Of a stretch of DNA of 55,396 nt, positions 41,999 through 44,905 are shown in pieces (the stretch's first letter is position 1; the number at the start of each line of letters is the position of its first letter). The stretch comes from Thermoleophilaceae bacterium (GTDB taxonomy: Bacteria > Actinomycetota > Thermoleophilia > Solirubrobacterales > Thermoleophilaceae): positions 1-55,396 of the forward strand of contig JAICJR010000002.1 of NCBI GenBank assembly GCA_025928345.1, in the 5' to 3' direction. Under the pieces are notes generated by a model that was not told the origin of the DNA, made no database searches, and saw nothing but the letters and a program-made list of their open reading frames with translations. Made by a program: the position numbers and the translations under genes.

Positions 41999-42880
41999 TC
42001 AGGGGCCATCCCGTCCGCGCTCGCCGCTGCGCACCATCACGCAGTCGAACTCGAGCACGCGGCCCGTGCGGACGTCGCGGCTCACCGGGAAGAGGCCGGT
42101 GATCTCGAGCCCCGCCGCCTCGTACACGGCGAGCGCATCGGGCATCCGCGGCATGCCCTCGTAGAGCTGGAGCAGGGCGACCTCCGACTGGACCCCGATG
42201 AAGTCCACCACCCGCTCGCCCAGGCCCGCGAACACCTCGAGGTCGTAGCCCTGCGTGTCGAGCTTGAGATAGAGCCGCGGCTCGGAGACCGGCGCGATCA
42301 CCTCGTCGAGGATCGCGTCCAGCCGGCGGACCGGCACCTGGACCGTCGTGGGATCGCGCAGGCGGGGGTGCCGGCGAGCACCGAAGCTCGTGGCGGGCAG
42401 CATCGAGCTGAGCGTGTCGACGACGACGTTCATCGGCATCTCAGCCCCCTCGCGCCCGAGCGCGTAAGGGTGGGCCGTCCACGCCGGGTCCCCCGCCGCG
42501 GTGCGTTCCAGATGGCTGAAGGCTTCAGGCACCGGCTCGAACGAGACGATGTGGCCGCGATAGCCCGCGTCACGCAGACGAAGGCCGAACTCGCCGCGAT
42601 GGGCCCCGACGTCGAGCACGCAGTTGATTCCGTACGTGTCGAGCACTGCGGCGACGTGGCCGTGAGCGAGGTACTCGGCGAGCCCCGTCTCCATCTCGAA
42701 CCATTGCTCACGGGCGAGCTCGCGATCCGTCGCCAGCACCGCTCCCGCGGTGAGCTTGCGCACCTGAGCGCTCCCGCGGCGGCCAGCTGCTGCGGCTCCC
42801 GGGCCGATGGTGGCCGCCTCCACCCCGAGGGAACGGAGCAGCCGGAGCCCGCGCCGGCGCCATGCTCGAGATAAGACCAT
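41999..42880 (-). CDS. FkbM-family methyltransferase
   Basis: YGINCVLDVGAHRGEFGLRLRDAGYRGHIVSFEPVPEAF...VRRLDAILDE...LYLKLDTQGYDLEVFAGLG. Confidence 0.92.
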   Translation of the reverse strand: MVLSRAWRRRGLRLLRSLGVEAATIGPGAAAAGRRGSAQVRKLTAGAVLATDRELAREQWFEMETGLAEYLAHGHVAAVLDTYGINCVLDVGAHRGEFGLRLRDAGYRGHIVSFEPVPEAFSHLERTAAGDPAWTAHPYALGREGAEMPMNVVVDTLSSMLPATSFGARRHPRLRDPTTVQVPVRRLDAILDEVIAPVSEPRLYLKLDTQGYDLEVFAGLGERVVDFIGVQSEVALLQLYEGMPRMPDALAVYEAAGLEITGLFPVSRDVRTGRVLEFDCVMVRSGERGRDGP

Positions 42881-42948
42881 CCTTAGGCAGCCACGATACG
42901 AAACCGCAGGCTGCCCTAGAGCCAGCGGTCCGCGTGAAGGCGGGCAAC

Positions 42949-42989
42949 GGTGTGGATTTTTAGGGCTCCTGGCCCCAAAACTCCACACC
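42949..42989. repeat. Long imperfect hairpin GGTGTGGATTTTTAGGGC-TCCTG-GCCCCAAAACTCCACACC
   Basis: 16 of 18 stem positions pair; pentaloop TCCTG. Confidence 0.85.
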
Positions 42990-43008
42990 GGGGGAGTCCA
43001 CGGTGCGG

Positions 43009-43035
43009 GAATTTGGTTGTCCTGCAACCAAATTC
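43009..43035. repeat. Perfect hairpin GAATTTGGTTG-TCCTG-CAACCAAATTC
   Basis: Perfect 11-bp stem; pentaloop TCCTG identical to the neighbouring hairpin. Confidence 0.9.
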
Positions 43036-43049
43036 GCCCACTGTGCGGT

Positions 43050-44348
43050 TCACCGAACGGTGATCTTGAACTTCCCGACCAGCACGCCTTGACCGGGTCC
43101 AGCAGTGGGGCCGAGCGCGGTGTTCTGCCCGCCGTTGAATCTCACTTCGCCGCGGAAGGTGCCGTGGCAGCGTTGCGTGGGGAAGCTGAGCTGCACCCGC
43201 TGGCCGGCGTTGATGTCCTTGTAGGTTCCGCCGCCTTCTATCGCGTGGCAGTTGATGCCGTGCGAGTTAAGCCGCATGATGCCGGTGTACTGGGCGCTGG
43301 CGTCCGTCACGCCTACGCGTGCAATGAAGCTGACGACGACCTTCGGGCCGTAGTGGGCTTTCCCGAGACGCGCCGTGACCGGCGAGGCCACGTCTGTGGG
43401 TTTGGGCTGCGGCCGCTTGACGAGCACGCGTCCCACGAGGGGGCAGGTGCCACCGATCGGCCCGTTGTCCTGCGCTCTGCGGCGCAGGTGGCATACGTAG
43501 CCGTTGCGGTAGTCAATGCGAACGATCGGACCCCCACCTGGCGCGGGCATGGGTTCGAAGCTGCCAAGAGCGTGGAAGCTCTTGCGCGGAACCGGCAGCA
43601 CGATCAGGTAGGCGCCCTGATTGCCTCCGGTCGCGATCGTCTTCCGCTGGCCGTTGACCACGTAGGTGACGCTCTTCGCCTCAGGTCCTGCCATGCCGTA
43701 GTAGAGGAGCCGCCAGTCCTTGCGCGGGCAGATCGGCGGCTGGTTCGGTCGTCTGCCGATCGGCCCGTGATCGTGGTGCGCCACGCACCCGCGCTGGGTC
43801 GCGCTCGGCACCATCAGGCCGCTCGCCGGGACGCCGTGAATGCTCACCGCGCCGAAGGCATGGCCATTAGCATCGAGCACCCCGCAGGGGAAGGGCATGG
43901 AGTAGTTGCCGCCCATGTAGTCGGGCACGTAGGGATGGAACTGCCCGTCGTCGTTGAAGACTCCGTCCTGGCCGATCACACCGAGCTGGCCGTTCTGCAC
44001 GCGTCCGGCCTGGAGGCAGCCGAGCCCGCGCGTTGTCGTGAAGTAGCGCAGCCCCCACGGTGGCCCGCCGGCAGGGTCCGGCACCGCGATCGGCAGCACC
44101 TGGGCGCTGCCCGGGCGGATCACGCCAAGCCCCGCCTTGGGATTCGGCTTCTGGTGACCTGGCGGCTTCAGCGGCGAGCCCGTTCCGATCAGCCGCGGCG
44201 CGGCAATCGCCACTGCAGCCGCCACGGGGCCGGCGAGCATCGCGAACACGAGCATTGACCGGCGCACACGTCGCTTGGGCAGCGGAGCCGAAGAAGCTCG
44301 CCGCGCCGCGTCTACGAGCTCGGCTTCCAGTTGTGGCACGAGGCTCAC
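43050..44348 (-). CDS. Membrane-anchored exported protein co-encoded with ECF sigma factor
   Basis: GTG start overlaps the sigma stop (GTGA); N-terminal cytoplasmic LVPQLEAELVDAARRASS, one TM, large Cys-containing C-terminal domain. Confidence 0.75.
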   Translation of the reverse strand: MSLVPQLEAELVDAARRASSAPLPKRRVRRSMLVFAMLAGPVAAAVAIAAPRLIGTGSPLKPPGHQKPNPKAGLGVIRPGSAQVLPIAVPDPAGGPPWGLRYFTTTRGLGCLQAGRVQNGQLGVIGQDGVFNDDGQFHPYVPDYMGGNYSMPFPCGVLDANGHAFGAVSIHGVPASGLMVPSATQRGCVAHHDHGPIGRRPNQPPICPRKDWRLLYYGMAGPEAKSVTYVVNGQRKTIATGGNQGAYLIVLPVPRKSFHALGSFEPMPAPGGGPIVRIDYRNGYVCHLRRRAQDNGPIGGTCPLVGRVLVKRPQPKPTDVASPVTARLGKAHYGPKVVVSFIARVGVTDASAQYTGIMRLNSHGINCHAIEGGGTYKDINAGQRVQLSFPTQRCHGTFRGEVRFNGGQNTALGPTAGPGQGVLVGKFKITVR

Positions 44349-44905
44349 GCTGATCCCTCCTCGAGGTCGCGGCGCAACAGCGCCAATCCACGGCTCACGC
44401 GCTGACGGACCACGGCTTCCGAGCACTCGAGCTCGCCGGCGATTTCGCGGTACGAGCGCTCCTCGAGCACCCGTTCGCGCACCGCGTTGCGCTGGTCCGG
44501 CGTCAGCTCTCGAAGCCACTCTTCGACGAGCGCGTCGTCGAACTCCTGGACCGCCTCTTCGACTGTCGCCACCAGCCGGTCGTCCAACGTGATCGGCGCC
44601 ATGCCCAAGCGCTCGCGCGCGGCCGCCTCCACTCGACCGCGCGCCAGGCTTTCCGCCAACACGTGTCGCGCCACGCCGAAGAGCCAGGCCCGCGCGGCCC
44701 CCCGCCGAGGATCGAAGTTGGCGCGCGACTCGAACGCGCGCGCGAACGTTTCGGCGGTGAGATCGACGGCAAGCTCACCTCGACCAGTGGCACGCACGAA
44801 GAACCCGAGCATGACGCGCTCGTGCCGCCGGTAGAACAGCCCGAACTCCTCCGGATCGCAGGAGCGCAACAGCTGCTCATCCGAAGCGCGCGAACGGTGC
44901 CCCAT
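44345..44905 (-). CDS. ECF-type RNA polymerase sigma factor
   Basis: FGLFYRRHERVMLGFFVRATGRGELAVDLTAETFARAFESRANFDP... and LTPDQRNAVRERVLEERSYREIAGELECSEAVVRQRVSRGLALLR. Confidence 0.93.
   Translation of the reverse strand: MGHRSRASDEQLLRSCDPEEFGLFYRRHERVMLGFFVRATGRGELAVDLTAETFARAFESRANFDPRRGAARAWLFGVARHVLAESLARGRVEAAARERLGMAPITLDDRLVATVEEAVQEFDDALVEEWLRELTPDQRNAVRERVLEERSYREIAGELECSEAVVRQRVSRGLALLRRDLEEGSA

Follow-up and report, generated by a model that had tools for sequence, protein, structure and literature searches.

The two AT-rich hairpins between an FkbM methyltransferase gene and its upstream neighbor in a Thermoleophilaceae bacterium are probably, with a likelihood that we put at about 0.6, solitary, non-autonomous copies of a palindrome that is part of a putative selfish element, one coding for an AbiEi_4 winged helix joined to a DUF559/Vsr-like nuclease. 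Taken together with the palindromes found at the starts of such nuclease genes, the two hairpins suggest a small selfish genetic element. The link to AbiEi_4/DUF559 genes is not visible from the window alone, that is, from the whole 55,396-nt stretch of DNA that was analyzed. In the literature searched, no description of such an element was found: no paper connected palindromic repeats with DUF559 or AbiEi_4 genes, and none turned up on REPs combined with actinobacteria.

Direct reading of the window places one hairpin, GGTGTGGATTTTTAGGGC-TCCTG-GCCCCAAAACTCCACACC, at 42949-42989 with 16 of 18 positions paired, and a second, GAATTTGGTTG-TCCTG-CAACCAAATTC, at 43009-43035 with all 11 pairs formed. 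They lie 19 nt apart, and the loop of each is CAGGA when read on the minus strand, exactly as the original prediction had it. Its remark that the hairpins contrast with their surroundings was borne out as well: they are the only strong AT-rich hairpins of the window, ranking first and joint third among 26 hairpins, and the only palindromes of at least 36 nt with a score of 14 in the 55 kb. Its description of the stems as unrelated was mistaken, as both read TTTNG-NNN-CAGGA-NNN-CNAAA on the minus strand. Each hairpin is part of a 49-bp inverted repeat (22+5+22) with the shared core TTTNGNNN-CAGGA-NNNCNAAA, and the loops are identical because both hairpins are copies of one family. Palindrome a (42998-43046, minus strand; covariance model E=2.2e-10) reads GAATTTGGTTG-CAGGA-CAACCAAATTC on that strand, with its loop at 43020-43024 and perfect inner arms of 11 bp at 43009-43035. 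Palindrome b (42945-42993, minus strand; covariance model E=9.7e-12) reads GGTGTGGAGTTTTGGGGC-CAGGA-GCCCTAAAAATCCACACC, with its loop at 42967-42971 and the inner arms with 16 of 18 pairs at 42949-42989. Along the minus strand, the upstream stop codon is followed by palindrome a as the first unit, then by palindrome b and the FkbM gene. The flanks, which lie outside the element, are as originally described: upstream, a 489-aa ORF without a Pfam match (43050-44519, minus strand), ending at 43050, and downstream, the FkbM methyltransferase gene (PF05050; 41999-42880, minus strand), whose start was set at 42880 in preference to a longer TTG-started ORF reaching 43027.

The two-palindrome unit (42940-43045, minus strand) recurs on another contig of the window's genome (G000). 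A BLAST copy on C212 shows 89% identity over 103-111 nt and includes the spacer, and the weaker matches are single hairpins on C227, C199, and C210. In the congener G001, the orthologue of the C212 site, assigned through flanking proteins and located on C4, likewise holds two palindromes. Tandem pairs in the same orientation also occur outside the window at L208:1473-1521 and 1614-1662 (G021:C42) and at G001:C4:12456-12565; the double unit is therefore a recurrent form. Further copies and covariation, which the original prediction had named as its checks, were both found: a covariance model detects 7 hairpins in G000 and approximately 13 in G001, and a gap-free alignment of 15 copies gives a 22+5+22-nt palindrome, with changes on both sides at 16 of its 22 pairs. 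Judged by sequence comparison, these copies form one family, whose architecture is constant across genomes and whose arm sequence is specific to each genome. Of the 399 genomes of the class, 3 contain the core pattern; all belong to one family, the third being G353, and a reversed control pattern gave no match. A pattern scan of all GTDB contigs returned 108 stretches, with many in one actinobacterial MAG (G353) in the version CTGC-N-TTTTGGTCG-CAGGA-CGACCAAAA-N-GCAG; the other matches are spread over many phyla and mostly lack extended complementary arms, as expected by chance. A wider model recovered the version of G021, GTGTCCTG...CAGGACAC, with loops that are mostly CAGGG or CAGAG, and one hairpin in G014. 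The models derive from known versions, so that other versions may exist unseen in genomes that gave no match. In some copies, the outer arms are swapped relative to the loop orientation (L061:1501-1549 on G001:C60 compared with L060, and L052 on G000:C227 compared with L058 on C199), as if the loop had been inverted inside the palindrome.

Palindromes of this size class are not limited to a single sequence family. When 400 kb of G001 were scanned for strong palindromes of any sequence, 14 turned up, and most of the strongest were 47-53 bp long. A first-order Markov shuffle of the same 400 kb gave no palindrome of comparable strength, and the strongest palindromes of G004, a negative control from the same family, included none of this size class. 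A second family, GACSTGGACCATATTTTCCGTG-N5-CACGGAAAATATGGTCCASGTC, occurs five times in G001 and is absent from eight other genomes. Its members L258-L262 (on C39, C51, C61, C76, and C73), written as TGGACCATATTTTCCGTG-N5-CACGGAAAATATGGTCCA, vary in the loop but conserve a C/C or G/G mismatch close to the outer end, and one of them spans the first codons of an AbiEi_4-nuclease gene. One further G001 family comprises L246:11708-11756 with L317:548-595 and L330:4379-4426, and another comprises L245:6338-6386 with L329, L249, and L320. For these two further types and for the G353 type, the DNA examined yielded no gene-borne copy.

Comparison between the two congeners indicates how the copies change. 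Flanking proteins identify four of the five G000 sites as orthologous to G001 sites. At three of these four, both arms have changed together around an unchanged CAGGA, with inner TTG/CAA in G000 against GGC/GCC or GGG/CGC in G001, and copies inside one genome tend to be more alike than orthologues. Flank searches revealed that five G001 copies are missing from G000, where the sites are empty and the neighboring genes lie close together. The clearest case is the site on G001 C61, where a palindrome separates two stop codons that overlap in G000. Presence and absence of this kind between species imply that each unit is acquired or lost as a block; no target duplication was readable at the copies. 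The solitary copies lie mostly behind stop codons, often between convergent genes. The window's own junction has no orthologue in G001, because no counterpart of the upstream 489-aa gene was found there. The site at a Rho_N gene junction is not conserved across the family, since the same junction has no hairpin in three more genomes.

Positions after stop codons, several of them between convergent genes, together with a strong hairpin fold and a loop that is conserved in the CAGGA family, would also be expected of bidirectional terminators or mRNA 3'-end stabilizers that resemble one another by chance. We consider this very improbable. A bidirectional terminator and a structured RNA were both among the original proposals, and the data speak against each: a search for intrinsic terminators (a GC-rich stem-loop with a T-tract) found none at 42700-43300, compared with 0.5 in shuffled sequences, and no T-tract is present. 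Moreover, the window gave no Rfam match at the gathering score and no tRNA or tmRNA, the loops vary in the second G001 family, and, at gene starts, the same palindromes fall within the coding region. A function at the RNA level should cause G-U pairs to outnumber A.C mismatches, whereas the two are equivalent in DNA. The arms covary strongly, yet the mismatched pairs in 41 copies are divided into 35 G.T and 33 A.C (p=0.90, in a simple count over related copies rather than a phylogenetic test). The palindrome copies thus show no sign of RNA-level selection, and owing to the lack of a G-U preference, their complementarity appears to be maintained in double-stranded DNA and not in RNA. The palindromes are neither typical intrinsic terminators nor structured RNA. 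Strong hairpin covariation need not mean RNA structure, since a protein's half-sites arranged as a dyad produce the same signal; counting G.T against A.C mismatches separates the two.

The association with nuclease genes points to the origin that we favor. In G021, two inverted palindrome copies flank a single gene, whose product has an AbiEi_4 winged helix in front of a restriction-endonuclease-like domain; genes of this kind also begin at the palindrome sites on G000 C210 and G001 C6. At the latter two sites, the start codon GTG lies inside the loop, in which CAGTG replaces CAGGA; CAGTG is likewise found in G021 C55, and in G021 C12 the start codon ATG lies inside the loop ACATG. The loop of the IRE resembles CAGTG, and IRE-like hairpins were dropped as candidates because the GTG start codon explains this motif. 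All 11 AbiEi_4-nuclease genes found in the DNA examined have a palindrome of at least 36 nt at an end. These are the genes on G000 C210 and C314, G001 C6, C51, and C14, G021 C55, C1, and C12, and G353 C224 and C226, together with a DUF559 gene on a Tsukamurella plasmid; six (C14, C1, C12, C226, C314, and Tsukamurella) were reached independently of the palindrome in question and the other five via palindromes. As a control, an equally strong palindrome within 100 nt of the start was present in 4 of 254 other genes (200-400 aa) from the same DNA, and the background of strong palindromes was approximately 0.1 per kb. Most of the 11 genes have a palindrome at the start only. The gene on C314 has a strong palindrome behind it and only a decayed match at its start, and the Tsukamurella gene, a distant relative, has inverted palindromes on both sides. 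The gene-borne palindromes follow a 22+5+22 or 23+3+23 layout, with lengths from 41 to 57 nt among genes.

In the sequences compared, solitary near-copies are confined to the genome with the gene-borne copy: four for C51, one for C14, approximately 12 for C55, two for C12, and two for C226, with none in the DNA examined for the C1 and C224 types. Palindrome b of the window shares 78-79% identity over about 40 nt with the start palindrome of the nuclease gene on C210 (BLAST). No AbiEi_4-nuclease gene was found in the stretches of G004 and G002 examined, viral contigs and phages contained no full-length relative of the nuclease gene, and the Tsukamurella gene was the only good full-length relative in a plasmid search. 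Two different AbiEi_4-nuclease genes (L056:1380-1480 on G000:C210 and L335:3982-4055 on G021:C1) adjoin what appears to be the same serine tRNA gene, recognized by eye rather than by ARAGORN, one lying behind it and the other in front, which perhaps indicates a favored site. Degenerate genes of this type keep their palindromes (L276:1444-2082 on G000:C314 and L289:17194-17914 on G353:C226); one lacks the nuclease core, and the other has a broken frame.

The encoded proteins combine a winged-helix domain with a nuclease-like domain. Among eight aligned proteins, AbiEi_4 was matched in all eight, REase_MTES_1575 in seven, and DUF559 in five. Their profile matches PDB 3hrl (E=2.6e-8) and 3r3p, annotated as 'Mobile intron protein' (E=0.0044). 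These profile matches identify a Vsr-like catalytic domain, and its putative catalytic residues were read from the alignment, which shows conserved histidine and acidic positions. At one of the acidic positions, the proteins of C210 and C6 have Q instead, and their nucleases may therefore be inactive. No AbiEii toxin gene was seen with these nuclease genes.

We propose that the full form of the element would consist of an AbiEi_4-type winged helix fused to a DUF559/Vsr-like nuclease, with a palindrome that overlaps the start of the gene and is sometimes repeated in inverted orientation behind its end. From the geometry of AbiEi operators, we infer that the protein may bind the palindrome, two molecules occupying the two arms of about 22 bp as half-sites. 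Binding at the gene start would result in autoregulation. At dispersed copies, the nuclease might nick or cut, so that the palindrome, or the palindrome with its gene, could be copied into new places; such putative nuclease-driven spreading is our preferred mechanism of dispersal. Copies would persist mainly just behind stop codons, where they may do little harm. The arms would change together within a genome because the copies follow the preference of one protein or copy one another. The conservation of the CAGGA/CAGTG loop in the first family exceeds what half-site binding alone explains. As most genes have a palindrome only at the start, the movement of gene and palindrome as one unit stays putative.

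The chief competitor of this reading is a plain operator model, which holds that the gene-borne palindrome is an autoregulatory operator of the AbiEi type and that the dispersed copies are additional selected sites, serving a regulon or chromosome marking, without any mobile element. AbiEi-family proteins do autoregulate through 23-bp inverted repeats in the promoter (PMC7319586), and both the overlap with gene starts and the conservation at the DNA level are what this explanation would predict. However, it is disfavored by the location of the solitary copies, most of which follow stop codons, often between convergent genes, rather than occupying promoters, by the coming and going of long, near-identical 49-bp units as blocks between species, by the duplication of the whole two-palindrome unit with its spacer in G000, and by two cases in which inverted copies flank the gene on either side. 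We therefore regard it as unlikely. Extending the selfish-element reading, we suggest tentatively that the AbiEi_4-DUF559 genes may represent, or derive from, the autonomous form of a hitherto undescribed kind of mobile element. In this REP-like system, a winged-helix/Vsr-like nuclease would recognize a palindrome of about 49 bp that overlaps its own start codon, the solitary palindromes scattered between genes would be the miniatures, and a homing-type nuclease would replace the HUH transposase.

DUF559 and AbiEi_4 fusions are currently annotated as 'type IV antitoxin' or as proteins of 'unknown function', and the fused nuclease has no accepted role. If these genes carry dispersed binding palindromes, the fusions are better seen as selfish elements or their descendants, and the origin of a group of palindromes in high-GC actinobacterial genomes would be explained. 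The start-codon palindrome of each gene reveals the predicted binding site of its protein, so the idea lends itself to a direct test.

Among known systems, REP/REPIN-RAYT elements (REPtrons; PMC3733652, PMC3116915) are similar in that they form dispersed extragenic palindromes in genome-specific families, as singles and pairs, and in that a protein gene is flanked by palindrome copies, with the solitary copies as miniatures. REPs are defined as palindromes of 20-40 bp with a GTAG or CGTC tag at one end (PMC3733652). The original comparison with REP/BIME elements was thus sound as regards dispersed extragenic palindromes and the recurrence of the two-hairpin unit (89% over 111 nt), but it fails with respect to the transposase and the tag: PF01797 (Y1_Tnp; RAYT/IS200 transposase) had no match in G000 and 10 relatives, while control genomes gave matches, and an alignment of 26 sequences of the 49-bp unit showed no constant tetranucleotide at either end. 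For this reason, the solitary copies, though REP-like, are not filed as REPs. Copy numbers also differ, from a few to about 20 here against hundreds for REP/REPIN elements, as do the 49-bp unit with its 22-bp arms and the associated gene, which encodes an AbiEi_4-DUF559 nuclease with its start codon in or beside the palindrome. One could still suppose that these are classical REPs moved by a RAYT (Y1 HUH transposase) that was missed in draft assemblies, with the nuclease genes being coincidental; small extragenic palindromes in genome-specific families and paired units, as in BIMEs and REPINs, would fit. We give this explanation the least credence, given that no Y1_Tnp protein was found in 11 genomes (one 100% and several more than 90% complete), that the units are longer than the REP range, and that the association with nuclease genes is far above that of the controls. 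The palindromes are not RAYT-REPs.

In its own promoter, AbiEi occupies a pair of 23-bp inverted repeats with 3 bp between them and acts as its own repressor (PMC7319586). The operators of the type IV toxin-antitoxin system AbiE (S. agalactiae abiE and M. tuberculosis Rv2827c; PMC7319586) likewise involve a winged-helix protein of the AbiEi group, and their 23+3+23 = 49 bp overlap the start of their own gene, which matches the gene-borne copies and not the window's solitary copies. Unlike AbiEi, for which dispersal of the site is not reported in PMC7319586, the site is dispersed through the genome here; furthermore, the protein has a Vsr-like nuclease, and no AbiEii toxin gene was seen. MITEs are similar in that short non-autonomous copies match the ends of a gene-bearing unit. 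However, the miniature here is one 49-bp end-palindrome, rather than two ends around an internal stretch, and neither a DDE transposase nor a readable target duplication was seen at the copies. Two other candidates were dropped: integron attC sites, from general knowledge of the attC consensus, and DNA uptake sequences, with their species dialects and inverted pairs behind genes, as the copies are far too few.

I-Bth0305I is an EDxHD/Vsr-like homing endonuclease. Such enzymes differ from the present system, in which no intron or intein is involved, the sites lie behind genes rather than within them, and a palindrome at the gene's own start is accompanied by miniature palindrome copies. They share with it a nuclease domain, recognized by profile (PDB 3r3p, E=0.0044), and the possibility, putative here, that the nuclease drives the spread of its own gene by cutting.
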